Shown here one piece after another: positions 9,722 through 25,842 of a stretch of 44,790 nt of DNA (its first letter is position 1; each line of letters starts with the position of its first letter). Both the position numbers and the translations under genes were made by a program. The stretch is from an uncultured Sulfitobacter sp. Lineage in GTDB: Bacteria; Pseudomonadota; Alphaproteobacteria; Rhodobacterales; Rhodobacteraceae. The notes beneath the pieces were generated by a model, which worked only from the letters and a program-made list of their open reading frames with translations, ran no database searches and was not told where the DNA came from. The stretch is from assembly GCA_938003685.1 (NCBI GenBank), contig CALKXT010000123.1, positions 1 through 44,790 of the forward strand, given 5' to 3'.

Positions 9722-9748
9722 AGCGGCCGATAGTTCATATCGGCCGCT
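9722..9748. terminator. Bidirectional hairpin terminator
   Basis: A perfect 11-base-pair stem (agcggccgata / tatcggccgct) with a 5-base loop lies between the convergent protease and LysE genes. On the minus strand the stem is followed within a few bases by a TTTT tract, so it probably terminates the minus operon as well as the protease transcript. Confidence 0.8.
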
Positions 9749-9766: not shown

Positions 9767-10384
9767 TTAAAAGTTCTTGAGCGCGAGAAGCCCCGCAGCG
9801 GCAATCACGATAAGACCACAGCTTTTATTAATCGCACCTGCACCCACTCGTCTAAACCAATTCGCAGCAGAGATACCGATCCATCCCCAGAGAACCAAAA
9901 TGACACCATCAAAGACAAGGTAGGTCGTCGCCATAATCAACAATTGCGGCAAAATAGGCTGATCTGCCTGGATGAACTGCGGAAATAACGATGCAAAGAA
10001 TACAATGGCAAATGGATTGGACAGTGACGTGAAAAACCCCTGCCAAAACAAATTCTTTCCTGATCCTGTCGCCTGCGGCTCGCTCGCTAGTTTGATTGTC
10101 TCTGTCCTAAACAAGGAAACCCCGATCCAAAGCAAATAGGCAACTCCGAGCCATTTCACCCAGATGAACAGACTTGGGTTGGCAGCAACTAAAGTCGCCA
10201 ACCCGAATGCAGCTGCAGTCATCTGGATCGCGTTTGCGGAAAGATCACCAATGATTGTTAAACCGGATCGCTTAAGCCCAAAAGCAATGCTGTTTGATGC
10301 AATCAACAATTGGCTTGTATCAGGCGGAGAGGCGAAAAACGCGATCACCGCAAGCAGATACAGAAGGTAGAGTTCAGCTTCCAT
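9767..10384 (-). CDS. LysE/RhtB family amino-acid exporter (minus operon of the cluster)
   Basis: A 205-residue inner-membrane protein with six hydrophobic segments and the LysE-family marks: an early acidic/helical start, a PDTSQLLIASNSIAFGLKRSG-like loop near residues 20-40 (family consensus PGP followed by GxxxG) and the conserved SNPFAIVFF (residues about 116-124; family SNPKAxLFF). LysE proteins export amino acids or small amino-acid-like compounds with proton exchange. It is the last gene of the minus operon and overlaps the Rieske gene by 11 bases. A second LysE-type gene closes the core of the opposite operon. I infer that it exports the cluster's product or an intermediate; the substrate is unknown. 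Confidence 0.88.
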   Translation of the reverse strand: MEAELYLLYLLAVIAFFASPPDTSQLLIASNSIAFGLKRSGLTIIGDLSANAIQMTAAAFGLATLVAANPSLFIWVKWLGVAYLLWIGVSLFRTETIKLASEPQATGSGKNLFWQGFFTSLSNPFAIVFFASLFPQFIQADQPILPQLLIMATTYLVFDGVILVLWGWIGISAANWFRRVGAGAINKSCGLIVIAAAGLLALKNF

Positions 10385-10736
10385 GGGCTTGGCTCACTTG
10401 GGGTTTTTCAGATAATCTTTGACCAGGTGAGGGCATGATGCGCGGCAAACTATTCTCAGATCCTTCGGGCAATTTGGCTATCCAATAATCACCGACCCGG
10501 GCCGTCGGCAAGGCCCGATGTCTAAGCGCACGAATTGATGTCGGAACCTTATGCCAAGGACATGTCAGGCACTCTTTCTTACCATCATAACTAGCCATAT
10601 GTAGTGGGCCACCTCGGTGCTGACATCGCGTCGACACCAAGAACTTATCATTCGAGCTTTCATCATCCACGATAAAGAACCGGTCGTCATCGTAGATGAT
10701 CATATCGCCCTGAGCTTCATTGAAGGAGTACCACAT
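10374..10736 (-). CDS. Small Rieske [2Fe-2S] protein
   Basis: A 120-residue soluble protein with one Rieske cluster site: Cys38-x-His40 in CQHRGGPL and Cys59-x2-His62 in CPWH. There is no catalytic oxygenase domain and no membrane anchor, so it resembles Rieske-type ferredoxins that pass electrons to an oxygenase. The last 50 residues after the cluster are basic and proline-rich and not typical of the fold. In this operon the obvious acceptor is the SznF-like diiron enzyme, which needs an external electron source; this pairing is inference. The start at 10736 lies six bases after the methyltransferase stop, with GGTGA upstream as a weak ribosome-binding site. No ferredoxin reductase is in the cluster. 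Confidence 0.85.
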   Translation of the reverse strand: MWYSFNEAQGDMIIYDDDRFFIVDDESSNDKFLVSTRCQHRGGPLHMASYDGKKECLTCPWHKVPTSIRALRHRALPTARVGDYWIAKLPEGSENSLPRIMPSPGQRLSEKPQVSQAHGS

Positions 10737-10742
10737 GCTCTT

Positions 10743-11549
10743 TCACCGCGCTTTCTTTGCTATAATAATATCCTCGTAGAGGAATTCGGGTGTCGGAAGT
10801 TCCCAAGCGTTCTCAAACCCAATCTCAATAAGCATGTTTGCCAATTCAGCCTTATCAAACAAATAACTGTGCCGCACTTGTTGATGGGTTTCGCCGCGAT
10901 ATTCCACCAAATTGTTCCAAGTTTTGCGGCGGGCATCCCAATCATAGCGCATATCCCAAGTCGCGGTTGCCTTGCTACCATCCAAAACCCCCGTTCCGAC
11001 CTCCATCACGTACCGATCCTGGTTCGACCGGTTGTTATTCTTTTGCAGCCCAACATAAAAATGTCCGCCGGGATTTGTAACGTCGTAGAAGTTTTTCAGG
11101 ACTTCCTTTACTCTTGCCTTAACTTTCGTCGGCCCCGACACCATCGCCCCGGCAGACCAACTGTCCATAAAACCAATGCTAGCATCCAAGCATAGAACAG
11201 TATCAAATTGATTCATGACCACCTTGGGCAGGCTTTGCCAGTCAACGCATAACACCGGTACAGAATTGGATTTGGGATCAACAATTTGCAAAAGTTGACG
11301 CAACAAATCTGGATCGGCGTCACTGCACCAAAGGTTCTTAAAACCGGCGTCAAAAAGTTGCTTTGCCGGGAAACCGACCCCAGCAGCCGTGTCAAAAATA
11401 CTCTGACTCTTGTCACCATGGGTCAGCAACGCCTCCGAAAGCCAGTTTGCGTAGGTCGATTTGTAATGAGGGGTGTGAAGCAGCTGTTCACACACTGTCC
11501 AGAGTGCAGCCAATCGTTCTCTGTTGTCCTGTTCCACTACTGTTTGCAT
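10743..11549 (-). CDS. Class I SAM-dependent methyltransferase
   Basis: A 268-residue enzyme with a Rossmann-type SAM fold: motif I FDTAAGVGFPAKQL (near residues 50-63), an acidic residue after strand 2 (SDADPDLL), and FDTVLCLDASIGFMD (near residues 113-127), which resembles glycine/small-molecule N-methyltransferases. The start at 11549 is chosen because AAGGAA precedes it by seven bases; a longer frame to 11591 has no such site. Either way it overlaps the 3' end of the decarboxylase gene by about 60 bases. Streptozotocin biosynthesis methylates the arginine guanidine before SznF acts, so this enzyme is a candidate for the matching step. The substrate is inferred only from operon membership. 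Confidence 0.8.
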   Translation of the reverse strand: MQTVVEQDNRERLAALWTVCEQLLHTPHYKSTYANWLSEALLTHGDKSQSIFDTAAGVGFPAKQLFDAGFKNLWCSDADPDLLRQLLQIVDPKSNSVPVLCVDWQSLPKVVMNQFDTVLCLDASIGFMDSWSAGAMVSGPTKVKARVKEVLKNFYDVTNPGGHFYVGLQKNNNRSNQDRYVMEVGTGVLDGSKATATWDMRYDWDARRKTWNNLVEYRGETHQQVRHSYLFDKAELANMLIEIGFENAWELPTPEFLYEDIIIAKKAR

Positions 11550-13017
11550 GACAAATTCCTTTCTTAGGATGGTTGATTTTGGGTAATTCATATTCCGTTA
11601 AGCCAAGATCGAGCACGACCTCCAACAACGTCGATAGATCGTCTTTGGTGGTATTTTCTGATATGAGATGGGCGCGAAGCCAAAAGCGACCGTCCATTTC
11701 CACACCGGTCAAATAGGCCGTTTCAGCACGTGCCATGCGATCCCGCAGGTGCCTGTGTAGACGGCTGTCGGGGTCGGCCCCTGTCAATCTGAAACACACC
11801 ATGTTGAAATCGGGATGACACATCAATTCGAACTCAGGATGGCCGTCAATCAAGCGCGCCAGTTCTTGGGCCAAATCACACATCGTTTCGACCCGTTGCC
11901 CAAGGGCGTCACTGCCGTACGCCACAAGTGCCGAAAATATTTTTATCGCGGCAAATGGGCGCGTGCATGCGAGACTCCATTCGATGGGATCCACTGGACC
12001 AACACGGTTTATCGCCTTTTGGTCCGCGATATATGATGCGTCACACAACTCATCAGACAACGCCGCCTTTAGGGCATTCGCATTCTGTACAATGAGCAAG
12101 GAGCTTGGCGGTGCGATCCACATCAGTTTGTGAGGGTTCCACCCGAAACTATCAGCGCGTAACAAACCATCGAGTTTTGCACTCAGTTTGCTGGACAAGA
12201 TCGCAGACCCGCCATGGCTTGCATCAACGTGAAACCATGCATCGCAAAGTGCTGCCTGTTCTGCACAGGTGTTCAAATCATCAAAGGCTGAATTTGCAGT
12301 CGTCCCTGCCGAAGCGACGATTGCCATCACATCCATACCTTCGGCACTGGCCTGATCCACAGCCGCTGTCAGTGCGGCCATAGACATGCGTCCTGCAGCG
12401 TCAGTGGCAACTGCGCGAATATTTTCTCGCAATAGCCCTAGAACGCGGGCACTGCGCGCCACACAGTAATGTGCATTCTCGCTATGAAGCACTACCAGTC
12501 GTCGCATATCCATGTCTTGTGCAAGACGTTGCTTTTGCTCACGTGCGCACAGCAATGCGGTCAAAACGGATTCCGATCCGCCATTGGTCTGCGTTACACG
12601 GGCCGACGCTGGAAGGCTAAATAGATCCTTCACCCAATTGCCCACGAGGTTCTCAACGGTAACAGATAATGGCCCGGCCTCGAAAACACTGACAGTGCTG
12701 TTGGTCGATCCTGCTAAAAGGTCACCAGCCCAAGAAGCGACCAATGGCGCTGGCCGTTGATGTCCGAAATGCAAGGGATGGCGATAATCGCGAATGTGAT
12801 CTGTTAATGGCCCAGTCAGCAACTCAGCCAGGTATTCAGGGCCCATCCCTTTTCGTGGTAGTTTCTCGGGAAGAAACGTAGCAATGGATGCCTGATCTCC
12901 AGCAGCGACCGTACGATCATGGCCTCCGAATGCCTGATCCAGTGCGCGGTTCATAACGGATTGCATGAGATGCGTAGCCTGATCGCGCGACATTTCTGGT
13001 ATTGTTTGTGGTTTCAT
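11488..13017 (-). CDS. PLP-dependent group II amino-acid decarboxylase
   Basis: A 509-residue fold-type I PLP enzyme of the group II (aromatic-amino-acid/glutamate/diaminobutyrate) decarboxylase family. Visible: TNGGSESVLTALLCAR (phosphate/cofactor region), HVDASHGG with Asp265 for the pyridine nitrogen, and the Schiff-base lysine Lys297 in WNPHKLMW. The HVDAxxGG and NxHK motifs are standard for the family. The last 40 residues are poorly conserved and overlap the methyltransferase gene. The ATG overlaps the preceding stop (ATGA at 13014-13017). It could decarboxylate an amino acid or an N-modified amino acid made in the cluster. Some group II members catalyse oxidative deamination instead, so decarboxylation is likely but not certain. 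Confidence 0.88.
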   Translation of the reverse strand: MKPQTIPEMSRDQATHLMQSVMNRALDQAFGGHDRTVAAGDQASIATFLPEKLPRKGMGPEYLAELLTGPLTDHIRDYRHPLHFGHQRPAPLVASWAGDLLAGSTNSTVSVFEAGPLSVTVENLVGNWVKDLFSLPASARVTQTNGGSESVLTALLCAREQKQRLAQDMDMRRLVVLHSENAHYCVARSARVLGLLRENIRAVATDAAGRMSMAALTAAVDQASAEGMDVMAIVASAGTTANSAFDDLNTCAEQAALCDAWFHVDASHGGSAILSSKLSAKLDGLLRADSFGWNPHKLMWIAPPSSLLIVQNANALKAALSDELCDASYIADQKAINRVGPVDPIEWSLACTRPFAAIKIFSALVAYGSDALGQRVETMCDLAQELARLIDGHPEFELMCHPDFNMVCFRLTGADPDSRLHRHLRDRMARAETAYLTGVEMDGRFWLRAHLISENTTKDDLSTLLEVVLDLGLTEYELPKINHPKKGICHANSSGTGQQRTIGCTLDSV

Positions 13018-13493
13018 TGCACTGGCTCCGCTTTACTTTGCATTTTTTGCCAACTTAGAAATTGGGCGTAGACCGTTGGACGATGGATGCGCAGTGCCCG
13101 AACCGTTGCTAGACATGCATCCCAGTTCTGCTTTCGCGTCGTTTTGCCGTCCAGACCGGCAGCAACTATGTATTGCGTATGCGAAAGGTGCTCAGCAGTT
13201 AGAGTGTAGGGTAATTGCCAATCTAAATAATTGGAGTTTCCGCCCACGAGTGCGGCATCAAAGCGTCCAGCCTCCTGTGCGACGCAGAGCTCGCCGCGCA
13301 ACCCAGTAACCGGGGCGATCATGATGTCGACGCCCGATATCATGCGTGTTTTCGAAATCGAGCCACCAACAACTGTCAGATCATCGGTATAGTCAAAATT
13401 ACCTGCCTCGCCCCCAGTGATCCGTCGGACCACCAGGAACTCGGGCCTGTTTGACCAGGCTGCCGCAGAGGGAGAGGGAAAGACGTTAAACAT
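13014..13493 (-). CDS. Conserved-looking protein of unknown function in the N-N cluster operon
   Basis: A 159-residue soluble protein that I do not recognise. There is no signal peptide, no membrane segment and no clear metal- or nucleotide-binding motif. The middle is rich in Gly and beta-prone residues (VVGGSISKT, VDIMIAP, AALVGGNSNYLDW), followed by a basic helical C-terminus. A GGGAG ribosome-binding site precedes the ATG at 13493. It sits 21 bases after the sznF-like gene and overlaps the decarboxylase by four bases, so it is almost certainly translated as part of the operon. It could be an accessory subunit or a small enzyme; nothing visible decides this. Confidence 0.7.
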   Translation of the reverse strand: MFNVFPSPSAAAWSNRPEFLVVRRITGGEAGNFDYTDDLTVVGGSISKTRMISGVDIMIAPVTGLRGELCVAQEAGRFDAALVGGNSNYLDWQLPYTLTAEHLSHTQYIVAAGLDGKTTRKQNWDACLATVRALRIHRPTVYAQFLSWQKMQSKAEPVQ

Positions 13494-13514
13494 TGGCTTG
13501 CTCCCAAAACGGCC

Positions 13515-14939
13515 TCACTGTGCTGCAACTTGGTTGTCGAGCGCCGCCAACATCGTGTCGCGATCAGCGATTGGCTGGTGATAGACGCTTTCGTCTGACG
13601 TCACGACAGAACCATGCAGACGGTGACGCGGTATCGCTAAAATGTCGCCAGCCGAAAGCGACAAGGCGTCGCCGTAGATTGGCCAAAACTCCATTGACCC
13701 GCTCTCGATCACCAACAAGCGATCATCGGGATGGGTGTGCGTCGTTGACCGTTCGCCTTTGCATTCCACAAAGGTTTCCAAAGGGATTTCAGACCCATCA
13801 CCAACAACCTCGTGATAATAGCGTTTTGCCAAATCCGCTGATTGCTCAAGCGAGTTGAAAAACTCCAATTGTGCAACAAGGTCTTCATCTGCAAGAGATT
13901 CAAGGAATTGGAACTCAAGAAAACCGCGCACAATTTCGCTAGCGACATCGTCCCCAAATCGATCCAGAGCCGGTTTGATCACACGATGAAGCGCCATTTC
14001 ACCATGGTGTTGATCAATGTGATGATGTTCGTCGAAATACTTGGTATCGACATCTTTGCCAAACACCGTCCGCAACATTTCGGACTGCCGCTTGGTCACA
14101 TTCACCAGACTTGCTTCGGTATATAACAAAGCACCGAGGTAGCGGAACGCATGCCGTTTCGCCCGCGTGATGTAGTGGAAATAGTTCGTCATGCACAACG
14201 ACGTGGCTTGATAGAACTGCCAGTAGTGATGGATTTGCGAGGAAAGCCCGACGGATTTCATTGTGTTTTCATAGAGCGTGCTGTGTTTGTTATCATGAAC
14301 ACCTGCGCCATACTCATCAATCAATATGTTGAACACCTCAGATTGAAGTGGCCCGAACATGCCTGACGCCATCCGCGACATGGCAGATGCTTCGGATAGA
14401 AAATCCGGTGCAAATTGGATGAGGTAATGCTGTGCGCAGCGCTTTGGATCAGGTGACGTCATAATCGCGTTCAACACGGCAGAACTGCTTGCGCCCAAAT
14501 CGCGTGATTGTTTCTGCTCGTGTAGAAATGCCTCAAAAAATTCCATCGCATCCTTGGCTGTCCATTTGCCTTCGATCTGGATTTCATCATCCAGAAAACC
14601 AAATGCTTTTTTCTCAAGATCGTGACGAACAGCGTCTGCTTTGGCCAAGGCGTCTTCTGAGTAAAAAGTGGCGAAATCTTCGGCAAAACCTGGATAGGAT
14701 TGATCAGGCAAAAAAAGCATGTCCATCTCATAGACATTCAGCAGCAGGCGATGCGTCGACAAAGCCGAATTGCTGGCTTGATTATTTCGGTTCAGAGGTG
14801 ACGCAAAATTGATGAATTGATTGTCAAATGTCCGGGTTGGGCGACGATATGGATTATTCAAAAACACCTCATCTTCTTCTGCATCATGAAAGAGCGGAAC
14901 CGAGGCGAGATCTGCGATGCGATTGGCAACTGACGACAT
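13515..14939 (-). CDS. sznF: SznF-like N-nitrosourea-forming metalloenzyme (heme-oxygenase-like diiron domain + cupin)
   Basis: A 474-residue protein with a central heme-oxygenase-like diiron oxidase domain and a C-terminal cupin. Diiron ligand candidates: Glu183, Glu209, His219, Glu275, His305, Asp309, His312. Cupin iron ligands: His401 and His403 (HTH) and His442, with Tyr453 nearby. From memory, SznF uses E189, E215, H225, E281, H311, D315, H318 and H407, H409, H448, with Y459 in the cupin pocket; each matches here at a constant offset of -6. SznF hydroxylates the guanidine nitrogens of N-omega-methylarginine and rearranges the product to an N-nitrosourea. The start at 14939 has AAGGAGA eight bases upstream; the longer frame to 14966 is less likely. 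It is the first gene of the minus operon. The actual substrate here is unproven. Confidence 0.88.
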   Translation of the reverse strand: MSSVANRIADLASVPLFHDAEEDEVFLNNPYRRPTRTFDNQFINFASPLNRNNQASNSALSTHRLLLNVYEMDMLFLPDQSYPGFAEDFATFYSEDALAKADAVRHDLEKKAFGFLDDEIQIEGKWTAKDAMEFFEAFLHEQKQSRDLGASSSAVLNAIMTSPDPKRCAQHYLIQFAPDFLSEASAMSRMASGMFGPLQSEVFNILIDEYGAGVHDNKHSTLYENTMKSVGLSSQIHHYWQFYQATSLCMTNYFHYITRAKRHAFRYLGALLYTEASLVNVTKRQSEMLRTVFGKDVDTKYFDEHHHIDQHHGEMALHRVIKPALDRFGDDVASEIVRGFLEFQFLESLADEDLVAQLEFFNSLEQSADLAKRYYHEVVGDGSEIPLETFVECKGERSTTHTHPDDRLLVIESGSMEFWPIYGDALSLSAGDILAIPRHRLHGSVVTSDESVYHQPIADRDTMLAALDNQVAAQ

Positions 14940-15263
14940 TAGGAATTCTCCTTGCTGGCAACGCACCGAAAGTTAAATTTTCAGTGCTGTCGTGAATGAT
15001 CGTGATGTCCAGATAAGGCTAGTTGTGACGCATGTTTCGAGCAAATAAGCCGACCTAATCCATGCATTACATGACTAGGTATTTGGCCTTCTCCTTCCTT
15101 ATTTCTAGAGAAAGATGAGTTTTTTAACATATATAAAACAATAAGTTAGATAGCTAAATCATTACAAATCGAACCACAGCTAATGCCCGCGTTAGAATTG
15201 ATAATTCGACTGTGCGGTTCGTCGGGGGCAAGATCGGATCAAACATCAGAAAGCCATCTGACC
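14940..15263. promoter_or_regulatory. Divergent promoter region between the two biosynthetic operons
   Basis: No gene. The region is AT-rich between about 15100 and 15175, with TATATAAAAC-like stretches suited to -10 elements. It has a short inverted repeat TTAG-atag-CTAA near 15146-15157. Both operons must start here, so a shared regulator is likely. I do not see a copy of the palindrome found upstream of the LysR gene. Confidence 0.55.
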
Positions 15264-16379: not shown

Positions 16380-16396
16380 TTGAAAGGACTTTTCTC

Positions 16397-16594
16397 ATGT
16401 CAACTTCCGTAAAAGAACGCATTTGCACAATCGAATGCCCTGAATGTGAATTCGATTTTTCACTTGAAGCACCCTCGAAAGGTGAAGTCATTGCATGCCC
16501 AGATTGCCAGTTAAATTTGTTGGTTACAGGTGTCACGGGTGAAACCGTCGATGTCGAGCTGACAGAAACTGACGCCGAAGATTGGGGACAGTAA
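16397..16594 (+). CDS. lysW: LysW-type amino-group carrier protein with C-terminal Gln
   Basis: A 65-residue acidic protein. It has a zinc-ribbon pair CPEC (Cys14, Cys17) and CPDC (Cys34, Cys37), followed by an acidic tail ending in EDWGQ. LysW proteins of Thermus, Deinococcus and archaea, and carrier proteins of some Streptomyces metabolites, end in EDWGE. The gamma-carboxyl of that last Glu forms an isopeptide bond with the alpha-amino group of the substrate, which stays protected and recognisable through successive enzymes. Here the last codon is CAG (16589-16591), giving Gln65. An AAAGGA ribosome-binding site precedes the ATG. It lies 17 bases after the HMGL-like gene and one base before the LysX-like gene. 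Confidence 0.93.
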   Translation: MSTSVKERICTIECPECEFDFSLEAPSKGEVIACPDCQLNLLVTGVTGETVDVELTETDAEDWGQ

Positions 16595-16595
16595 G

Positions 16596-17462
16596 GTGCG
16601 CGCCCTCCAAGTTATCTGTTCGGTTGCGAGACCTGAGGAAAAGATGCTCTTTGAGCGCGCAAGTTCCCATGGCTTTTCGCCAGAAATCGTTCTTGCAAGC
16701 AAAACAGCATTTACTGTTCCGACAACATCTTCTTCTCCCAAGATGTCGCAAAGGTCAGTTTCCTTGATGCGAACAGCATCGTTTTTCGCAGCTGGACAGA
16801 TAGCCTCTGTCCTAGAAGCCAGCAATCAATCAGTGTCAAACAGCGCAGATACAATCTCTTTGTTTGGTCAAAAAGTTCAAACTGATGCCTGGCTACGCCT
16901 CAATGGTTTTCCAACTATTCCAAGCGTTGTTGCTTATAGCGAACAGAGTGCGCTTGCCGCCGCAGAAACATTAGGGTTCCCGCTGGTGGTCAAACCCAGC
17001 ATCGGCGGATTTGGAAAAATGGTGCAAGTCGTCCGCGACGAAGATGAATTGCGCAATGTTGTTGAGTATATTCTTGGCTTTGCGCCTGCATCTCACAAAT
17101 GCCTTTACCTTCAGAAACATGTCGACATCGAATTTGATGTAAGGGCGGTATTAGTAGGTCAAAGAAACATTGCGGCCTTTAACCGCGTGCTTTCGGATGA
17201 GCAAAACGTATTGGGGCCGCGAAATGTGGCGCAAGGTGCCATCGGGGAACGCTTTGAACTGGAACCCAAAGATGTCGCAATGCTTGAATCGCTTGCCACA
17301 AAGGCAAGCAGCGACTTTCTAGGCGTGGATCTCTTGATTTCTAAAACGGGCGAAAAATTCATCTGCGACGTAAACCCTGTTTGCCGTTTTCAAGAAGCGG
17401 TTCGCGTAACCGGTGTCGATATCCCCAACGAACTACTTGATTACGTTGCGCAATGCGCTTGA
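16596..17462 (+). CDS. lysX: LysX-like ATP-grasp ligase acting on the amino-group carrier protein
   Basis: A 288-residue ATP-grasp enzyme. It starts with GTG at 16596, one base after the lysW stop. Shared with LysX/ArgX: RPEEKMLFERA near the N-terminus, the SLMRTASFFAAGQIA block, PLVVKPSIGGFGKMVQVV (ATP phosphate region), YLQKHVDIEFDVRAVLVG, and the ending VTGVDIPNELLDYV. The NTARGG-type substrate loop of LysX/ArgX is replaced by RNVAQGA, and the usual EFKNS by CRFQEAV, so a different amino acid is probably selected. The family uses ATP to join the alpha-amino group of a substrate to the terminal Glu of LysW; here the terminal residue is Gln, so prior deamidation or a different linkage is needed. 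A RimK-like ligase of another substrate is unlikely given the neighbour. Confidence 0.9.
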   Translation: MRALQVICSVARPEEKMLFERASSHGFSPEIVLASKTAFTVPTTSSSPKMSQRSVSLMRTASFFAAGQIASVLEASNQSVSNSADTISLFGQKVQTDAWLRLNGFPTIPSVVAYSEQSALAAAETLGFPLVVKPSIGGFGKMVQVVRDEDELRNVVEYILGFAPASHKCLYLQKHVDIEFDVRAVLVGQRNIAAFNRVLSDEQNVLGPRNVAQGAIGERFELEPKDVAMLESLATKASSDFLGVDLLISKTGEKFICDVNPVCRFQEAVRVTGVDIPNELLDYVAQCA

Positions 17463-17478
17463 AAAAAGGAGTAAGGCT

Positions 17479-18528
17479 ATGAAATGTGGAGTTCTTGGTG
17501 CCAGTGGTTTCATTGGCCTTCAACTTGTCGAAATTTTGGGAAATCACCCAAACATCACCGGTATCGTACCTTTTAGTCGAAAGCTGGCAGGCAGGCCCCT
17601 TGCTGCGATTAATCCAATTTACAAAGGCCACAGCAACGTACAGTTCTGCAAGCCTGATAAAGAAAACCTAGCAAATCTGGACGCCCTCTTTATTGCCTTG
17701 CCACATGGAGAAGCTGCACCTTATGTGAAAATAGCTATGCAACACGATATCCCTGTGGTTGATTTATCAGCTGATTTTCGCATGGCCTCCAAAGAAGTTT
17801 ACGAAGATGTCTTTGGAGAACCTCATCCAGAACCTGATATGCTGTCCCATTTTGAGCAAGTTTGCCCAGATATCAATGGACCAAAGGCGAAAGATAAAAA
17901 TCTAGTTTCTGTGCCGGGATGTACGGCCACAGCAGCGATTTTGGCATTGTATCCACTTTTGGCTGACGATTTGATCTCTTCACGGCGGATAATCGTTGAC
18001 GCGAAGGTCAGTTCCAGTGGCGCGGGCATCTCGGCAGGCATGGCGCAATCACATGTCTTTAGAAACAACGGCGTACGGGTTTATCGTATGCTGCGCGAAC
18101 ATAGACACGTCGCAGAGGTTGAATCCTTTCTTGGCGCACAAACTGGCAAATCAATTGAAATGCAGCTTAGCGTGTCTTCTGTCGACATGGTGCGTGGGAT
18201 TTCAGCGATTGCCTATTTCGAGGTCGCTGACGGCGCTGATACCAAAGAAATCGGCCGCAGCTATCGTAAACACTACGGTGAAAAGACGTTTGTACGAGTG
18301 ATCCGCCAGAACAGCGGAATGGAACGATATCCGAACCCACAATTCCTTCGCGGTACAAATTATTGCGATATCGGGTTCGAGTGCGATCCAAAGCGTAAGT
18401 CTGCGACATCAATCACCGCCCTTGATAACTTGGTCAGAGGTGGTGCCGGGCAAGCCGTTCAGGCGTTCAATTACCAACACAGTTTGGCACCGGACCTCGG
18501 CTTATCGAAACAAATCACATTTCCCTAG
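17479..18528 (+). CDS. lysY: LysY/ArgC-like [carrier protein]-acyl-phosphate reductase
   Basis: A 349-residue NADPH-dependent reductase. It has GASGFIGLQL (residues 7-16, nucleotide binding), SADFR near residue 95, the catalytic PGCTATAA (Cys148), SSSGAG, EHRH (His208, His210) and DNLVRGGAGQAVQAFN near the C-terminus. Family members reduce an acyl phosphate on N-acetylglutamate (ArgC) or on a LysW-bound substrate (LysY) to the semialdehyde. The start at 17479 has GGAG seven bases upstream; the frame also runs back to 17413 within lysX. The place between lysX and lysZ supports the carrier-bound version over arginine synthesis. Confidence 0.9.
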   Translation: MKCGVLGASGFIGLQLVEILGNHPNITGIVPFSRKLAGRPLAAINPIYKGHSNVQFCKPDKENLANLDALFIALPHGEAAPYVKIAMQHDIPVVDLSADFRMASKEVYEDVFGEPHPEPDMLSHFEQVCPDINGPKAKDKNLVSVPGCTATAAILALYPLLADDLISSRRIIVDAKVSSSGAGISAGMAQSHVFRNNGVRVYRMLREHRHVAEVESFLGAQTGKSIEMQLSVSSVDMVRGISAIAYFEVADGADTKEIGRSYRKHYGEKTFVRVIRQNSGMERYPNPQFLRGTNYCDIGFECDPKRKSATSITALDNLVRGGAGQAVQAFNYQHSLAPDLGLSKQITFP

Positions 18529-18536
18529 GAAGCAAG

Positions 18537-19346
18537 ATGAAAATCCAGAAAATAGGAGGCAGCTGTATTGTCGGCAACGAAGCGTTGGTAGCGCAACGCT
18601 TGCAAGCCGAACTGCAAGCTGACAACAAATCCATTGTCGTGGTGCATGGGTTTGGCCCAACACTGCGCCAGTTTTTGACCCAAGCCGGGATCGAGCGTGA
18701 AACCTTTACCACGCCCTCAGGCATGCAATCCCATTTCACAGACGAAACCGTATTGGCATTCTCTCATGCAGCTGCGGCATTGGTTCAGCGGCGCCTAAAG
18801 CAAGCGATCGAAGCCTTGGGTATTTCGGTTGCAGCATCGTTAGCCCACAAACCGTTAGTCTACGGGAAACGCAAACAAATACGCTCTTTTGAAGGTGGCG
18901 TGGTCCGCAGCTTTCCAAACGACTTTTCCGGGCTTCCAATTTCTTTTGAACTCAATGAAATCCAAAATGAGTTGAACCAAAACCAGATATTTCTGATCGC
19001 GCCACTTCTTCATCGCACGAATTGCACCATGTTGTCGGGTGACAGTGATGCATTAGCGACAAGCCTAGCCGTTGCATGCAACACGTCAGAGTTGGTGTTT
19101 TTAACAGATGTTAACGGCTTCATCGACAACGGTAAAACTGTTCCTGAAATCCTCACATCAGACATTGCACGCCACATAGAAATTGCCACCGGCGGCATGC
19201 GCAAAAAACTGATCTATGCGCGAAAATGCGTCGATTCAGGCGTCGCGCGGGTTGTCATTCGCAACCTGCTTTCTGCAACCTCCTCGCACAAAGAGACTTT
19301 GATTCATGATGGCCAAAATTCTCCTAATAAACAATCTCTACACTGA
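18537..19346 (+). CDS. lysZ: LysZ/ArgB-like [carrier protein]-amino-acid kinase
   Basis: A 269-residue amino-acid-kinase-family protein. Seen: an N-terminal K-x-GGS phosphate loop, VVHGFGPTLRQFL (residues about 35-47; the acetylglutamate kinase family has VHGGGP), a GDSDALATSLA block near residues 167-177, the FLTDVNGF strand-loop and GGMRKK near the C-terminus. LysZ phosphorylates the distal carboxylate of the carrier-bound amino acid to give the substrate of LysY. An AGGAAG ribosome-binding site precedes the ATG. HGFGP in place of HGGGP or HGGSA is unusual and may reflect a different substrate. The last 40 bases overlap the amidotransferase-like gene. Confidence 0.88.
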   Translation: MKIQKIGGSCIVGNEALVAQRLQAELQADNKSIVVVHGFGPTLRQFLTQAGIERETFTTPSGMQSHFTDETVLAFSHAAAALVQRRLKQAIEALGISVAASLAHKPLVYGKRKQIRSFEGGVVRSFPNDFSGLPISFELNEIQNELNQNQIFLIAPLLHRTNCTMLSGDSDALATSLAVACNTSELVFLTDVNGFIDNGKTVPEILTSDIARHIEIATGGMRKKLIYARKCVDSGVARVVIRNLLSATSSHKETLIHDGQNSPNKQSLH

Positions 19347-19935
19347 ATCTGAAAATCTGCGCATTGCGTGTAGAAACGCCCAGTTACCGTTTGACGAGGT
19401 GCGTCACACGGACATTGCAGATAGTGTCCTAACGCACGACGACTATATTGGCGTCGTTCTATCCGGGACAGGGGATAGCCCCGATGAGAAACTGCATGTG
19501 TATGATGATGAATTAGCACTACTCGCGCGCCTGAAATGCCCTGTATTAGGCATTTGTGGTGGGGCTCAAATCCTTACGCTCGGAAATGGTGGAGATGTAA
19601 GCGCAACACATGCGCCCATCGCCGGGCGAAAGCAGGTAAACATTACCAGCGATGACCCGCTGTTCACAGGATTGCCTAAACCCTTCACTGTGTTCTCAAA
19701 ACACCGTCGCTACATTTCAACGCCACCAAATGGCTATGACACATTGGCCCGTGAGGTGAAGGATGACTTCCCATATGTGCTGCGCAAGACAAATACATCG
19801 GTTTATGCTGTGCAATTTCATCCAGAACGACGCCAAGATGGCACGGCCTTGATGCTTAATTTTTTCCAAATTTGTAGGGACTGGGGGCAGTCTCAGGGCA
19901 AAGAAGTCCCCTCCTTTCTAGAGGCGGCAGAATGA
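19306..19935 (+). CDS. Class I glutamine-amidotransferase-like hydrolase
   Basis: A 209-residue single-domain protein with the class I GATase triad. Cys84 lies in the nucleophile elbow GICGGAQ, and His172 and Glu174 in QFHPE (numbered from the ATG at 19306; a second ATG at 19309 is equally good). Family members hydrolyse the side-chain amide of Gln. Relatives such as PuuD and gamma-glutamyl hydrolase cut gamma-glutamyl isopeptide bonds. No synthetase domain is fused. In this operon the usual LysK hydrolase is absent and the carrier ends in Gln. This protein could therefore deamidate Gln65, release the product from Glu65, or supply ammonia to the pathway; these are inferences. It overlaps lysZ by about 40 bases and the next gene by four. 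Confidence 0.82.
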   Translation: MMAKILLINNLYTESENLRIACRNAQLPFDEVRHTDIADSVLTHDDYIGVVLSGTGDSPDEKLHVYDDELALLARLKCPVLGICGGAQILTLGNGGDVSATHAPIAGRKQVNITSDDPLFTGLPKPFTVFSKHRRYISTPPNGYDTLAREVKDDFPYVLRKTNTSVYAVQFHPERRQDGTALMLNFFQICRDWGQSQGKEVPSFLEAAE

Positions 19936-20555
19936 TAAATTTTGAATACTTTCTGGTTTTTGTAATTACAGGGGCCGCTTTAGCGGCTGCACCAGGACCA
20001 AGCTTGTTGTTCATTGTCTCTCAAAGCATTCGCTTTGGTTTTTGGCCCGTTGCCCCTGCTGCGCTAGGCTTGGTTTTTGCGAGTCTGACCTATGCTATCC
20101 TCGCACTACTTGGTGCGGCAACTATTCTGGAGACCTTCCCCACAGCCTTAATTGTCGGAAAACTGGTCGGTGCCGCCTACCTCATTTCGCTCGCGATCCG
20201 TCAGATACGTTCCTCTGGAACATTCCAAGTTGATACTGAAAATCAGGCTCAAAGCGCGCGGTTGCAGTTTACGCGCGGCCTATTCGTAGGGCTTTCGAAC
20301 CCCAAGACGATGTTATTTTATCTCTTGTTCATTCCACAATTTCTTGACCCCGTTTTACCGTTTACACCTCAATTAGCGGTCTACAACACCGTGCAATTGT
20401 GTACTCTGGCGGCAGTAACCTTTGGATATGCGGCAAGCGCGGATGCGCTGCGTGGCTGGATATTCAAACCTTCATCAATAGGGTTAATGAATCAAATTGC
20501 CGGTGGCATTTTGATTTTTGCAGCCACATTGATGGTCGTGAGCCTCATACTGTAG
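19932..20555 (+). CDS. LysE/RhtB family exporter (plus operon of the cluster)
   Basis: A 207-residue membrane protein with six hydrophobic segments. The family signature is clear: AAAPGPSLLFIVSQSIRFG (residues 19-37) and GLSNPKTMLFYLLFIPQF near residues 117-134. Its ATG overlaps the amidotransferase stop (ATGA at 19932-19935), so it is translationally coupled to the biosynthetic genes. It is only distantly similar to the exporter at 9767-10384 (family motifs shared, little else), so the two may handle different compounds, or act as a pair. The expected role is export of an amino-acid-like product. Confidence 0.9.
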   Translation: MINFEYFLVFVITGAALAAAPGPSLLFIVSQSIRFGFWPVAPAALGLVFASLTYAILALLGAATILETFPTALIVGKLVGAAYLISLAIRQIRSSGTFQVDTENQAQSARLQFTRGLFVGLSNPKTMLFYLLFIPQFLDPVLPFTPQLAVYNTVQLCTLAAVTFGYAASADALRGWIFKPSSIGLMNQIAGGILIFAATLMVVSLIL

Positions 20556-20618
20556 TCGCCCCTCAAATTCTCAAATCTACCCCAAAGATACTGAGCAAAA
20601 CAGTGTTTGCACTATGGT

Positions 20619-20635
20619 TGTATCATCCATATACA
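20619..20635. promoter_or_regulatory. Candidate LysR operator (T-N11-A palindrome)
   Basis: TGTAT, seven bases, ATACA: a perfect 5-base inverted repeat whose inner 13 bases fit the T-N11-A rule for LysR-type regulators. It lies 57 bases upstream of the LysR gene, consistent with autoregulation. Confidence 0.5.
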
Positions 20636-20691
20636 TTCACGTAAGGCGCGATCCAATATCTTTGTCTCTCAAGATAGGTTTGATAAGCTGA

Positions 20692-21615
20692 ATGAAAGAG
20701 TTATTTCCGTATTTCAAGTGCTTTGAATCAGCAAGTCGGCACATGAATTTCACAAAAGCTGCTGAGGAACTGAACATCTCCCAAAGCGCGGTTTCTCAAC
20801 AAATGAGAACCTTAACGCGACGGCTCCATTTTCCTCTCTTCCGCAAACAAAGCAATAAATTGCTGCTCACCTATGAAGGTGATCGCCTCTCAAAAGTTGT
20901 GAGCAAAGCAATTTATGAGATTGAAAACGAAATCAGCCTGTTAAGCGTACACGATAGTATTGGGGATCTGAGGATCGGTGTGGATCCTAGTTTTGCAATT
21001 GGATGGCTTTTGCCCAAACTTGATCGTTTTGAAGCGCGGTTGATGGACAGTCAGGTCATGTTAAATGGCAATAATCATAGGCTGCGTGTGAGTAATGACA
21101 AAGAAGACGATGGCGTCGATATATCAATTCAAATTCTGACAACCGCCCCTGAAATAGTATCATTCTACGAAATTCCCAATGACGATTTCATCGCAATCTG
21201 TAGTCCGGAATTGCTATATCGCGGCGCATCGGAAATGAGCATCAAAGAGTTCAGGAATGAATCTCTACTTACTCTTTCACCTCATGGTGTAAATGCGGCA
21301 TATAGTATGGATTGTATGGTATGGTCAGAAAGTGCCGAAGTTGGTGGGATTCCGGCCAGAGATCATGAGCAATATTCTTCTTTGGAAATGCTGATGCAAG
21401 CTGTCGTTCATTGCCGTGGAATTGCGATTATCCGCCAATCGCTGGCTGATGATCATCTAAGGGCAAATAGAGTAGTGCGTGCGCTCCCTCACGCGGTTCG
21501 ATGTACGGACAGTTACTATGTAACTTGGATGGAAAACTCTCAGAATATCAAGCATATACGTGAATTCATTGAATGGTTTAGTGTTGAGTTTGAGCCATCC
21601 TCTATGGATAGTTAA
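20692..21615 (+). CDS. LysR-type transcriptional regulator of the cluster
   Basis: A 307-residue regulator. The N-terminal winged helix-turn-helix (residues 1-65) contains MNFTKAAEELNISQSAVSQQ, typical of LysR proteins. The rest is the periplasmic-binding-protein-like effector domain, which would sense a small metabolite. The gene sits within the plus operon between the exporter and the glutamate mutase genes, preceded by 136 non-coding bases containing a T-N11-A palindrome. It is noticeably AT-rich at its start (22 G or C in the 60 bases 20701-20760). It probably controls this cluster, perhaps from the shared region at 14940-15263. Confidence 0.93.
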   Translation: MKELFPYFKCFESASRHMNFTKAAEELNISQSAVSQQMRTLTRRLHFPLFRKQSNKLLLTYEGDRLSKVVSKAIYEIENEISLLSVHDSIGDLRIGVDPSFAIGWLLPKLDRFEARLMDSQVMLNGNNHRLRVSNDKEDDGVDISIQILTTAPEIVSFYEIPNDDFIAICSPELLYRGASEMSIKEFRNESLLTLSPHGVNAAYSMDCMVWSESAEVGGIPARDHEQYSSLEMLMQAVVHCRGIAIIRQSLADDHLRANRVVRALPHAVRCTDSYYVTWMENSQNIKHIREFIEWFSVEFEPSSMDS

Positions 21616-21706
21616 AACCCAACCCTTATTTTGTCATTAGCCTTGGTAATTTGCCTGAGGTATAGACCTAAGGTACTTTTTTCCTATATCTTTAAGGAGA
21701 AAAGCA

Positions 21707-22234
21707 TTGTCAGAAATTAGCAAATTAGAAGTTTGGCAGACGGCAACTCACCTTGAGCTCGACAAAGGCGCTCCTATCGTAATTTTGGCTGTTGCACCAA
21801 GTGACGTTCACGTTGTTGCCAATCAAATCATCGCGGCTCAATTACGGGTTAAAGGGTACAAAGTAATTAACCTTGGCGCTGCAACACCACTGCAAGAGGT
21901 GATTGAAACCTGGCAATCCCACTCTGATGTTTTGGCAATCGCCATTGGCAGTGTGAATGGGCATGCGCTTCAGGATTTGTGCGATTTGCCCAAACTTAAA
22001 CAACTTTACCAAGTGACCTGCCCTATCATCGTAGGCGGGAATCTATCAATTGGTGCTGAAAAGGATGGCTCAGAAGGTCAAAAGCTAAAAGACATTGGCG
22101 TCGACTATATTCTAACCGATGTGACACAGTTTTTTGACATTCTCGACCAGCTAAAGAATTCCAAAAACCGATCTGAACGCCCTTCGCATGGTGGCACACA
22201 CGAGTTCGACCACGCACAATCATTGGCGGTGTAA
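21707..22234 (+). CDS. glmS: Glutamate mutase sigma (B12-binding) subunit-like protein
   Basis: A 175-residue protein. The start is TTG at 21707, set by the strong AAGGAGA six bases upstream. It matches the cobalamin-binding S subunit: SDVHVVANQII (Asp33, His35), a GSVNG loop and IIVGGNLSIG. The lower axial ligand His and its Asp partner are present, but the DxHxxG motif reads DVHVVA, so the conserved Gly is Ala38. The C-terminal 30 residues are an extra polar tail. With GlmE it should interconvert glutamate and (2S,3S)-3-methylaspartate using adenosylcobalamin. It lies four bases before glmE, and a new promoter or readthrough from lysR is possible. Confidence 0.88.
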   Translation: MSEISKLEVWQTATHLELDKGAPIVILAVAPSDVHVVANQIIAAQLRVKGYKVINLGAATPLQEVIETWQSHSDVLAIAIGSVNGHALQDLCDLPKLKQLYQVTCPIIVGGNLSIGAEKDGSEGQKLKDIGVDYILTDVTQFFDILDQLKNSKNRSERPSHGGTHEFDHAQSLAV

Positions 22235-22237
22235 GCG

Positions 22238-23644
22238 ATGGGTTTAGACATTCAATCGGACGCCTTGTTTGATCAGTATCGGACCTACTGCCAGCAAACA
22301 GGCACAGAGCCACCCATCGAAACAGAGGCTATTCATTATCTCAAAGGTTTGAAAACCCTGTCAGTTCACGACCTTCTGACAGCAGCCCGAAGCAAGGGTG
22401 ACGTTTTGGTACAGCCGCGATGTGGCGTAGGCGAAATCGCGGCCATGACGCAGTTGTTGGAAACACTATCCTCCAAAGGTCATGCAGATATTCTGACCCT
22501 GACAATCGACGCGTACACAAGGCTGTTACAACTGGAAAAGGTCTCAGATTTGGCGACAAATGAACCAGACAGCCTAAATGGTTTTCCGCTTTTGTCGCAT
22601 GGCTGGCAAAAGACCCGCCAAATGTGCGCAAGCTTCAACGCGCCTTGTCAGGTCCGACATGGCTCTCCTGACCCTAGGCTGTTGTTTGCTGCAACAGTCG
22701 CATCCGGCATCACATCCTTTGAGGGCGGAGGGTTATCATATAACATCCCCTATTCCAAAGACACCTCGATCAAAGACAGCCTACGATACTGGCAGGAAGT
22801 CGATACTTATTCTGGAAACCTTGCCAAACAAAACATCATCGTTGATCGAGAGCTTTTTGGCACTTTAACAGCAGTCCTCATCCCGCCCTGTATCGCCTTA
22901 GCAATCACCATGATTGAGGCTATTTTAGCAGCCCGCGAGGGCGTGAAATGCATTTCCATCGCCTACCCGCAAAGTGGGAACCTTAGTCAAGATGTTGCGG
23001 CGCTTAACTGTGTCACCACCCTAGCACGCGCATTTTTGCCGCCCGACGTCGATTGTTTTCCGGTTCTACATCAATTTATGGGGGTCTTTCCACAAGCGCG
23101 TCACAATGCAGAAGCATTGATCGTTCTGGGATCCATTACAGCCAGACTTGGTAACGCGACAAAGGTCATTAACAAAACCTATCAAGAGGCAGCGGGAATT
23201 CCCAGTTCACAGGCTAATGTGGATGGCATTTTACTCAGTAAGACCGCGAACAGTTGGCTCTATGATCTACTTCCGGTGCCAATCGACCAGATTGAAGAGG
23301 AACAAGCGCAAATCTATTCTGAGGTCCTCGAACTGCTTGCGCCAATTCTTGATCGGGATTTAAGCCATGATGCTATTTCTGATGCCTTTGCAACTGGTGA
23401 ATTGGACGTTCCGTTCTCTGCAAACTCAAGCCTGCATAGCGCTGTCATTCCTGCACGATCCTCTTCGGGCGGCATTTATATCTCTGACTTTGGTAACTTG
23501 CCATTTTCTGAAAAAACCAAAGCCTTTCACCGCGCCCGCCTAAACACTGAGCGCAGTGACGCCACCGACATGGCTGCGATCTCTCGGGATATTCTTTATC
23601 TGGCAACCGAAACGACGGCCACTGCCGCGCCACAACTTTCCTAA
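22238..23644 (+). CDS. glmE: Glutamate mutase epsilon (catalytic) subunit
   Basis: A 468-residue protein, close to the usual 480. It follows GlmE closely: QPRCGVGEIAAM (near residue 59), TLTIDAYTR, NGFPLLSHGW, QVRHGSPDPRLL, TSFEGGGLSYNIPYSK, CISIAYPQSGNLSQDVAAL, LHQFMGVFPQ and the C-terminal DFGNLPF. The arginines and the RHG(T/S)PD loop that hold glutamate are kept. The enzyme performs a radical carbon-skeleton rearrangement of L-glutamate to 3-methylaspartate. No methylaspartate ammonia-lyase or GlmL chaperone gene is present here, so this is not the fermentative glutamate pathway. A biosynthetic role, as in some Streptomyces clusters, fits better. Cobalamin supply must come from elsewhere. 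Confidence 0.95.
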   Translation: MGLDIQSDALFDQYRTYCQQTGTEPPIETEAIHYLKGLKTLSVHDLLTAARSKGDVLVQPRCGVGEIAAMTQLLETLSSKGHADILTLTIDAYTRLLQLEKVSDLATNEPDSLNGFPLLSHGWQKTRQMCASFNAPCQVRHGSPDPRLLFAATVASGITSFEGGGLSYNIPYSKDTSIKDSLRYWQEVDTYSGNLAKQNIIVDRELFGTLTAVLIPPCIALAITMIEAILAAREGVKCISIAYPQSGNLSQDVAALNCVTTLARAFLPPDVDCFPVLHQFMGVFPQARHNAEALIVLGSITARLGNATKVINKTYQEAAGIPSSQANVDGILLSKTANSWLYDLLPVPIDQIEEEQAQIYSEVLELLAPILDRDLSHDAISDAFATGELDVPFSANSSLHSAVIPARSSSGGIYISDFGNLPFSEKTKAFHRARLNTERSDATDMAAISRDILYLATETTATAAPQLS

Positions 23645-23675
23645 TATGCACATCTCTCAAGAATAGGAGAATTCA

Positions 23676-24746
23676 ATGTTACAGACATATCAAACTGGTA
23701 GAACGACACATGCACATGTCTCGCCGTTCAATCAAGATAATCGCCCACAGAATACTGATCTTCAAACTCTCGATTTACAGGCTAACGAATGCAGTGAAAT
23801 GCGTAAATTAGTGCCAGTGAACCTTGACCCCTATCAAGATTTTCAAGGCTTCACAGCAAAAGCAATGCGCAGCATCGCAATGATGGACTCCGACAATTTG
23901 GCAGCCGTTAGAAAATTCGCCTCAGACCCCGCCGCCCCTGGGGCAATGCTGGTCTCTGGGTTGCCAACTGACGCTGCATTGCCACCCACACCCTTGGACG
24001 GTGAGCCTGCGAAAGATCGAGAAAGCTATGTCGGTGAAACAATGATCCTGGGGCTTGCTTCTATTCTCGGAGAACCTGTTGGCTATGAAACTGAAAAAGA
24101 CGGTCAGCTCATTCACAACCTGATCCCAATTAAGGGGGCAGAAACAACCCAATCAAATCGTGGGTCTTCAGCATTTTTGAGCTTCCACAACGACTCGGTT
24201 TATGATGCTCAGGACCACTATCACGTCTATAATCCGGACTTTCTGATCCTATATGGACATCGGGCAGACCCGGCGAAAGCAGCCCAAACCTTTTACATTT
24301 CGGCCCGGAAATTGCAAAAAATCCTGCCTTCAAAGATCATCCAGATCTTGCGAGAACCTCGTTTTCGGATGGCAGCACCAGCCAACTACACCGACCTATT
24401 GAATGGTGGCAAAAAAGTTTGGTCCAAACCGATGCCAGTGTTGTTTGGTAATGCCGAATATCCTGAAATCGCGGTTGCCGCCAATGGTGTCGATGCGCTT
24501 GATAGCGAAGCACAAACCGCTTTCGATGCGTTGACCGCGGCCTGTCAACACACCGATAACCACGCCAGCGTTGTTGTGGATTCTGGGCAAGCCTTACTCA
24601 TCAACAACCGTAAAGGGCTTCACGCACGCAGTTCTTTCAAAGCAACTTATGGCCCAGAAGAGCGTTGGCTATTACGCGCCAACATCCGCCGTAATACGTG
24701 GCAAATGAGAGATCGGATGACCGACCGGACAATGGTGTTTTCATGA
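23676..24746 (+). CDS. Fe(II)/2-oxoglutarate hydroxylase, clavaminate-synthase/VioC-like (TauD family)
   Basis: A 356-residue enzyme. The iron ligands appear as FHND (His171, Asp173) and the distal His316 in GLHARSSF, followed by the 2-oxoglutarate-binding Arg region (PEERWLLR). The motif style, with HxD, a preceding SAFLSF strand and NNRKGLHAR, resembles the clavaminate synthase group that includes arginine and asparagine beta-hydroxylases such as VioC and AsnO. It would hydroxylate, or desaturate, an amino acid or carrier-bound residue with O2 and 2-oxoglutarate. GGAGA precedes the ATG by five bases. It is the last confident gene of the operon, 31 bases after glmE. Confidence 0.88.
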   Translation: MLQTYQTGRTTHAHVSPFNQDNRPQNTDLQTLDLQANECSEMRKLVPVNLDPYQDFQGFTAKAMRSIAMMDSDNLAAVRKFASDPAAPGAMLVSGLPTDAALPPTPLDGEPAKDRESYVGETMILGLASILGEPVGYETEKDGQLIHNLIPIKGAETTQSNRGSSAFLSFHNDSVYDAQDHYHVYNPDFLILYGHRADPAKAAQTFYISARKLQKILPSKIIQILREPRFRMAAPANYTDLLNGGKKVWSKPMPVLFGNAEYPEIAVAANGVDALDSEAQTAFDALTAACQHTDNHASVVVDSGQALLINNRKGLHARSSFKATYGPEERWLLRANIRRNTWQMRDRMTDRTMVFS

Positions 24747-25841: not shown

Positions 25842-25842
25842 A

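Follow-up and report, generated by a model that had tools for sequence, protein, structure and literature searches.

The DNA analysed here (the window) is one whole contig of 44,790 bp (G000:C123) from a draft genome, 84.6% complete, of an uncultured Sulfitobacter sp., and the element in question lies at 9767-24746, where 17 open reading frames (ORFs), each open and free of internal stops, form two divergent sets. The minus-strand set begins with a gene for a homologue of SznF, the streptozotocin enzyme, and the plus-strand set encodes a putative amino-group carrier protein (AmCP) of the LysW type with its partner enzymes. The best reading of the region is that a novel type of SznF operon stands beside a novel type of carrier-protein pathway, the latter enlarged with genes for glutamate mutase and a hydroxylase, and it was given about an even chance that these are two neighbouring, self-contained pathways on an acquired island. 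Two biosynthetic types, neither of which was found described, are present in one place.

The gene content listed by an earlier reading made from the sequence alone (the sequence-only reading) was borne out: all 17 ORFs are intact and 16 of them matched named families or close ones in Pfam, NCBIfam or phmmer searches. Its family assignments agreed too and could be refined, in that the HMGL-like enzyme belongs to the homocitrate/isopropylmalate synthase branch, the 2-oxoglutarate hydroxylase can be assigned to the VioC/AsnO/GntD/clavaminate-synthase type and the hydrolase resembling a glutamine amidotransferase (GATase) keeps a Cys-His-Glu triad. The description of the cluster as new held in so far as it was rare in the genomes drawn and no account of it was found, but the combination of a carrier protein with N-N chemistry has a precedent in s56-p1, where both occur in one cluster, with Spb38-40 in place of SznF (passages of PMC9303977 and PMC11705231). 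No publication mentioning both SznF and LysW was found in the library searched, LysW is unmentioned in PMC9854754, and among titles on AmCP, on glutamate-mutase clusters and on SznF with a decarboxylase or in Alphaproteobacteria there was nothing like this cluster.

The SznF-like enzyme and its operon

Residues 13-463 of the 483 in P0006 aligned to residues 17-460 of SznF (6m9r; E=3.4e-113, phmmer) with 44% identity across the aligned part, and the three-part architecture of N-terminal helices, HDO domain and cupin is full-length. Passages of PMC11705231 give the metal ligands of SznF as E215, H225, E281, H311, D315 and H318 at the diiron site and as H407, H409 and H448, with Y459, in the cupin. 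All ten metal ligands tested are present in P0006, namely E192, E218, H228, E284, H314, D318 and H321 at the diiron site and H410, H412 and H451 in the cupin, and Y462 is kept as well. E189 of SznF is here taken to be a further diiron ligand. The same ligand letters were found in 17 other aligned proteins of the SznF clade, several diiron ligands were lost in two Tistrella-like homologues (29% identical), and a 33% match from a genome of the window's own family (G155) was without the cupin histidines. In the SznF tree the window protein was joined only weakly (88/93) to proteins of another family of the class, f37, and to the Tistrella pair. These two homologues were taken as belonging to the GrbD/ChmM type of the graminine siderophores, which has the same HDO and cupin architecture; P0006, unlike these two, keeps its seven diiron ligands and there is no nonribosomal peptide synthetase (NRPS) among the 17 genes. 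Matches to SznF were infrequent, being found in 2 of 394 genomes drawn from the family (the window's own and G155; the draw contained one other genome of the same genus), in 8 of 385 drawn from the class and in 3 of 334 drawn from the phylum at E<=1e-60, the own genome being counted each time. In G155 the HDO protein lacking cupin histidines (L049, 5835-7099) is followed by a Rieske-like ORF.

The neighbourhood of the sznF-like gene was searched in 20 SznF-clade loci (nine from Streptomyces, four on plasmids, G499, G651, three from f37 and two from f191), and a Rieske match was found there in all 20. The count excludes G734, where a contig end cuts the locus and the Rieske match is weak; it also excludes both Tistrella-like loci, which had none within about 1.5 kb. 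Because of this constant neighbourhood P0002 is probably the electron donor of the SznF-like diiron domain. No published statement of such a role was found, and PMC13108848, in the sections seen, mentions both proteins with nothing on a partnership.

An operon of the same kind as the minus-strand set was detected in 3 of 17 genomes of family f37, two of which (G612 and G785) gave the nearest SznF matches of the class draw, the third (G833) being found by a search of the family itself. The order in these genomes is SznF, a pyridoxal phosphate (PLP) decarboxylase (40-42% identical), a methyltransferase (47-49% identical to P0003) and a Rieske protein (34-36%), each homologous to that of the window; an EamA exporter comes next in the two operons scanned (G833 and G785), the ORF upstream of sznF is on the opposite strand, and the sznF of G785 is split across two contigs that were left unjoined. 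The methyltransferase P0003 was unmatched in those szn-type loci that were searched and has no detectable relation to their methyltransferase, which resembles protein arginine methyltransferases (PRMT). The decarboxylase P0004 reached 186 bits with the RhbB model (cut-off 900), has 2qma as its best solved chain, and appears from these matches to be nearest to the diaminobutyrate/aspartate decarboxylase type. P0005 was unmatched in Pfam, NCBIfam, plasmids and the f37 loci and was seen in the window only. Single-sequence fold models of P0005 and P0003 were unusable (predicted local distance difference test scores of 36 and 38).

Each of the szn-type loci tested from Streptomyces (L003, L004, L007, L010), Methylobacterium (L014) and G651 (L043) has both a PRMT-like methyltransferase and an ATP-grasp enzyme, and five of these six, L007 being the exception, also have a match to an Ada-like protein (O6-methylguanine methyltransferase). 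Queries for the first two, taken from a Pantoea locus (L015), found no match in the f37 loci or in the window, which was searched at E 1e-6, and the sole Ada-like stretch of the window (42871-43080, 48.6% identical over 72 amino acids) lies about 28 kb from sznF. By gene content the SznF operons of the window and of f37 thus form a type of their own, of which four loci were found, since the set of PLP decarboxylase, methyltransferase and Rieske protein is common to them and the szn-type partners are absent. That the minus operon is instead an ordinary szn-type N-nitrosourea cluster was judged improbable. In its favour are 44% identity, an HDO domain and cupin with all metal ligands and a Rieske protein nearby as in SznF/StzF, and SznF loci do vary, with neither PRMT-like nor ATP-grasp match in Azospirillum (L012) and G499 (L042) and a weaker ATP-grasp match only in Gloeothece (L013) and two f191 loci; the window, however, has a PLP decarboxylase and a different methyltransferase in place of the partners kept in Streptomyces, Methylobacterium and G651, and no adjacent Ada-like gene. 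The AT-rich genome G651, which measures 1.3 Mb and belongs to the window's class, has a complete szn-type set (PRMT-like methyltransferase, SznF, Rieske protein, major facilitator superfamily exporter, ATP-grasp enzyme and Ada-like protein) at L043, 7844-14129 of G651:C1.

The largest SznF survey found, of 426 homologues, placed 136 in szn-type clusters and also recognised diazeniumdiolate-type groups and groups associated with NRPS or polyketide synthases (PMC11177257, in the portion seen), and the present operon type may sit among the other members of that survey. The partners in this operon type differ from those of szn-type clusters and so point to a different N-nitroso product. By analogy with SznF, which turns N-methylarginine into the N-nitrosourea, the enzyme, fed with electrons by the Rieske protein, would hydroxylate a guanidine twice in the diiron domain, and the cupin domain would rearrange the hydroxylated guanidine to an N-nitroso compound. 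The methyltransferase and the PLP decarboxylase would tailor an arginine-like substrate or the product, a decarboxylated N-methyl-N-nitrosourea amine being one guess, and the LysE-type protein of the minus operon would export it. Compounds of the N-nitroso class can act as DNA alkylators or as sources of nitric oxide.

The carrier-protein block and the glutamate mutase

The block encoding the LeuA-like enzyme, LysW, LysX, LysY, LysZ and the GATase was found in identical order and strand in six other loci, namely G666, Rhodococcus fascians, R. erythropolis and three Streptomyces plasmids. The plasmid search with LysW matched nine records; the block was present in all five that were fetched and the other four look like near copies. 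The clusters of R. fascians (L050, 13826-23593) and R. erythropolis (L051, 11826-21595), both on plasmids, are almost the same. A search with LysX matched 6 of 58 genomes of the genus at E<=1e-10, own included, the match being strong in the own genome only; the other five (28-34% identical, E about 1e-12 to 1e-11, ORFs of 493-804 amino acids) were taken, on these values, as other ATP-grasp enzymes. The same search matched 2 of 385 genomes drawn from the class (own and G666) and 1 of 369 from the phylum (own included).

The carrier P0008, a candidate zinc-ribbon protein of the LysW type, has two CxxC pairs and scored 26.3 bits with PF21344 (cut-off 27) and 35.9 with NF041070 (cut-off 75), and lay below the cut-off of TIGR01206. 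P0009 was under the cut-off of the LysX equivalog model, with 3vpb and 3vpd as nearest solved chains; its GGFG agrees with a GG[FM]G found in all seven block loci, where LysX, ArgX and loci L025, L026, L063 and L064 have GSWG. Its motifs gave no indication whether Glu or aminoadipate is the substrate class. P0011 was under the cut-offs of the LysZ and ArgB models, and the homologues of LysX, LysY and LysZ adjoin the carrier. P0007 falls in the homocitrate/isopropylmalate synthase branch, yet its best NCBIfam score was 231 bits against a cut-off of 463, with TLRDLRN in place of TLRDGEQ and HCHSA in place of HxHND. The LeuA-like proteins of the block, in which TLRDGEQ, HxHND and GERAGN are altered, formed their own clade (100/99), apart from NifV, isopropylmalate synthase and homocitrate synthase.

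In known carriers a Glu at the C-terminus is loaded through its gamma-carboxylate (PMC9303977, as far as seen). The window carrier ends in EDWGQ, and its Gln end therefore needs explaining. Gln is the C-terminal residue in five of the seven block loci (the window, G666, NBC_00048, NBC_01558 and NBC_00435) and Glu in both of those from Rhodococcus; the carriers accompanied by transketolase and an M20-type hydrolase end in Glu in 4/4 (L063, L064 and the identical L025 and L026), as does that of L061, where LysW, LysX, LysY and LysZ alone were identified. The GATase occurs in all seven block loci, its triad kept in 7/7, and is an obvious candidate for deamidation or transamidation of the carrier, and for release. 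In carrier systems LysK is the M20-type release hydrolase and LysJ the aminotransferase. Neither is among the 17 genes and the GATase occupies the hydrolase's place. The GATase ORF of G666 (L048, 13003-14721) was seen by eye to run on into a part resembling a PLP aminotransferase, and from this it seems that a minimal form of the pathway would comprise loading, reduction, the LeuA-like step, transamination and release.

Amino-group carrier clusters for 2,6-diamino-5,7-dihydroxyheptanoic acid (DADH), as for vazabitide A and s56-p1, likewise have a LysW-type carrier, LysX, LysY and LysZ (PMC9303977, as far as seen), but the window has a LeuA-like enzyme for transketolase, a GATase for the M20 hydrolase of transketolase-type loci, no aminotransferase and a carrier ending in Gln. 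The six-gene plasmid clusters and G666 have the identical order, and G666 and the Streptomyces clusters, three in number, also have the Gln carrier; they differ in what follows, since the plasmid clusters continue with an AMP-binding enzyme, an aminotransferase and others where the window has LysE, LysR, glutamate mutase and hydroxylase. Studies on AmCP in Streptomyces were reportedly made by Hasebe (2016) and Matsuda (2017). The system defined here recurs in actinobacteria and in the window's class, breaks the rule of a C-terminal Glu and exchanges both the condensing and the releasing enzyme. The view of the sequence-only reading that the lysW operon is unlike an ordinary lysine or arginine operon was upheld. 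Homology of the four Lys proteins, and a LysY above the ArgC cut-off, are what could be said for a primary-metabolic operon, which was thought extremely unlikely with ArgJ encoded on another contig of the same genome, no LysJ or LysK, a Gln-ending carrier, no strong LysX match in 57 other genomes of the genus and a block that matches specialised-looking loci.

Downstream of the block, the counterparts of R66, R100, R149, E171, Y177 and Y181 of 6h9e were seen by eye to be kept in the mutase subunit P0016. These are presumably the glutamate-binding residues, comprising the arginine claw and Glu171 of the E subunit. Both subunits passed Pfam cut-offs and missed the curated NCBIfam scores (351.1 against 390.1 for E, 73.9 against 110 for S). 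Related mutases share their region with an amino-acid kinase and a semialdehyde dehydrogenase in five loci, one from Mesorhizobium AR07 (L024) and four on Streptomyces plasmids (L025, L026, L028, L029), and a hydroxylase 42-46% identical to P0017 was found in the mutase region of five Streptomycetaceae plasmids (L025-L029, four from Streptomyces and one from Streptantibioticus). For the latter figure 105 plasmid records matched P0017 and five of the top seven were viewed, four of them chosen partly as mutase matches too; the other two of the seven were NBC_01591 and a further record for the S. cattleyicolor plasmid. These sets resemble the window in GlmS/GlmE and, in Streptomycetaceae, in the VioC-like enzyme, but their kinase and dehydrogenase are an aspartokinase-type pair, to which Mesorhizobium adds a class III aminotransferase, whereas the window has the carrier-type LysZ/LysY. 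Since LysZ/LysY is the only kinase/reductase pair of the window, 3-methylaspartate is the likely substrate of the carrier system here. In L025 and L026, from two Streptomyces, a transketolase-type carrier cluster adjoins the glutamate mutase/hydroxylase set. The Mesorhizobium sp. AR07 plasmid set (L024, 12137-21332) comprises mutase, kinase, semialdehyde dehydrogenase, class III aminotransferase and an L-amino acid ligase, and a 3-methyl-diaminobutyrate route is possible for it on this gene content.

Every chemical step of the plus-strand pathway is proposed from the predicted enzyme families. LysX would load an acidic amino acid onto the carrier, and LysZ and LysY would convert the side-chain carboxylate to an aldehyde, cyclisation being blocked by the protected amine. 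The LeuA-like enzyme could then extend the aldehyde by a C-C bond, and the GATase, acting as a gamma-glutamyl hydrolase, would free the product and may also turn the terminal Gln of the carrier into Glu. Glutamate mutase would provide 3-methylaspartate as the loaded acid, or work alongside, the iron- and 2-oxoglutarate-dependent (Fe/2OG) enzyme would hydroxylate the beta-carbon, and the second LysE (P0013) would export the product.

One pathway or two

The sequence-only reading had taken both operons for one joint pathway, and the co-conservation that this predicts was not found; the outcome that it had itself named as refuting, related genomes with one of the operons only, was largely what the searches showed. 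In all three genomes that have the minus operon outside the window it occurs with no plus genes beside it, and LysX was detected at E 1e-8 in none of five genomes searched (G833, G612, G785, G499 and G651), nor GlmE in the last four of these. Conversely, SznF and glutamate mutase had no match in the five of the six other block loci that were searched with the window proteins, G666 is absent from the SznF-positive genomes of the class draw, and a second genome with both halves was not found. Two pathways are favoured because the modules are separable in both directions, an exporter is present in each and no plus-side gene is known for making a guanidine.

In a joint pathway a hydroxylated amino acid derived from 3-methylaspartate, made by the plus operon, would be decarboxylated, methylated and N-nitrosated by the minus operon to give one N-N product. 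Its attractions are that the operons stand head-to-head with no intervening gene, that both were rare in the draws and are of similarly low GC content, that the decarboxylase, nearest to diaminobutyrate decarboxylases, might accept a diamino acid made by the plus operon, and that s56-p1 provides a precedent for a carrier protein in an N-N cluster. It was nevertheless considered unlikely, given the separate occurrence of the two halves, the two exporters and the SznF precedent, which requires a guanidine that no plus enzyme is known to make. Another scheme, held only tentatively and on balance doubted, is that of a new carrier class with a C-terminal Gln, in which the GATase would prime the carrier, by deamidation or by gamma-glutamyl transfer to the substrate amine, and would later cleave the same type of bond for release, and in which the divergent LeuA-like enzyme would form a C-C bond to the protected semialdehyde. 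Extended by the mutase and lying beside a decarboxylase-containing SznF operon, such a system might possibly lead to one N-nitroso amino-acid product.

Several observations weigh against two self-contained pathways. Direct adjacency, divergence, similar GC content and apparent rarity of both operons in relatives would also fit one arrival and one pathway, and the rarity of SznF in congeners is based on one other genome of the genus (for LysX on 58, own included). The empty LysX searches of f37 were flagged with a warning, though the same query matches the own genome and G666. Only four minus-type loci were found, window included, and P0005 was seen in the window alone; the plus operon is without an aminotransferase; charging of the carrier via a terminal Gln is hypothetical, and Glu is kept in 2/7 loci; and the block does not generally come with the mutase, which had no match in the five six-gene loci searched.

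The region looks like an acquired island because the GC content of both sets (0.50 on the minus side, 0.48 on the plus side) is below that of the flanks (0.53 and 0.55) and the right flank resembles a Ruegeria pomeroyi megaplasmid (79.7% identical over 5.4 kb), a resemblance that also fits the roseobacter origin assumed by the sequence-only reading. No empty integration site was found among 19 congeners, as judged from flank proteins: that of the right flank was unmatched in all 19 at E<=1e-60, and that of the left flank had only relatives of 52-60%, in 18 of the 19, with a second copy (57%) in its own genome. That unrelated genes lie together here by chance or as a decayed remnant and now yield no product, which a single strain and a draft genome might allow, was held to be very unlikely, as the 17 ORFs are intact, the catalytic residues are kept, the spacing is tight and the gene order recurs elsewhere.

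Positions, gene starts and surroundings

The positions of all features are collected in Table 1. The SznF-like gene most likely starts at ATG 14939, which is preceded by a sequence like a ribosome site, and not at GTG 14966, and P0007 may start at ATG 15264; with these starts the divergent gap is 324 bp. The divergence claimed earlier for the two operons was confirmed. The single promoter that they were said to share was not recovered, as no promoter-like match was found in the gap and the whole region has fewer such matches than its shuffles. No motif common to the divergent region and the lysR and glmS promoters clearly exceeded shuffles. A palindrome with 9-bp arms before sznF was considered as an operator and dropped, being reached by 67 of 300 shuffles and not significant.

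Table 1. Features of the two divergent operons, with functions as predicted from the matches given
Feature	Position	Strand	Match
Terminator-like hairpin of 11 pairs, at which the minus operon ends	9722..9748 (9748-9722)	-	pattern match only
LysE/RhtB-type exporter P0001	9767..10384	-	PF01810 1.8e-26
Rieske [2Fe-2S] ferredoxin P0002	10374..10736	-	PF00355 7.1e-6
S-adenosylmethionine (SAM) methyltransferase P0003	10743..11591	-	weak, PF08241 1e-4, just above cut-off
Group II PLP decarboxylase P0004	11488..13017	-	PF00282 2.7e-58
P0005, 159 amino acids, without family match	13014..13493	-	
SznF-like HDO and cupin enzyme P0006, predicted N-nitrosating	13515..14939	-	match to SznF
Divergent intergenic region	14940..15263	.	
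LeuA/NifV-like DRE-TIM enzyme P0007	15264..16379 (longest ORF from 15183)	+	PF00682 1.6e-54
LysW-type carrier protein P0008, ending EDWGQ	16397..16594	+	weak, NF041070 5.8e-9, below cut-off
LysX/RimK-type ATP-grasp ligase P0009	16596..17462	+	TIGR00768 154.8 bits, cut-off 143.4
LysY/ArgC-type acyl-phosphate reductase P0010, start probably within ORF	17413..18528	+	TIGR01850 304.7 bits, cut-off 233.6
LysZ-type amino acid kinase P0011	18537..19346	+	PF00696 4.1e-25, above cut-off
Class I GATase-like hydrolase P0012	19306..19935	+	PF00117 7.6e-20, PF07722 6e-8
LysE/RhtB-type exporter P0013	19932..20555	+	PF01810 1.2e-28
LysR regulator, GcvA-like, P0014	20692..21615	+	
Glutamate mutase B12 (S) subunit P0015	21707..22234	+	PF02310 1.5e-9; NF002612 73.9 bits, cut-off 110
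Glutamate mutase E subunit P0016	22238..23644	+	PF06368 8.7e-115
VioC/AsnO/GntD/clavaminate-synthase-type Fe/2OG beta-hydroxylase P0017 (TauD/VioC-GntD-CAS type)	23676..24746	+	

An Asp/Glu racemase gene beyond the plus operon (25158-25886) was weighed as a member of the cluster since some six-gene loci have an 'arylmalonate decarboxylase', and was dropped, the racemase and ATP-binding cassette (ABC) genes matching a single stretch of Ruegeria pomeroyi. On the other side the cluster is adjoined by a gene for a serralysin-like RTX metalloprotease (7361-9715, plus strand).

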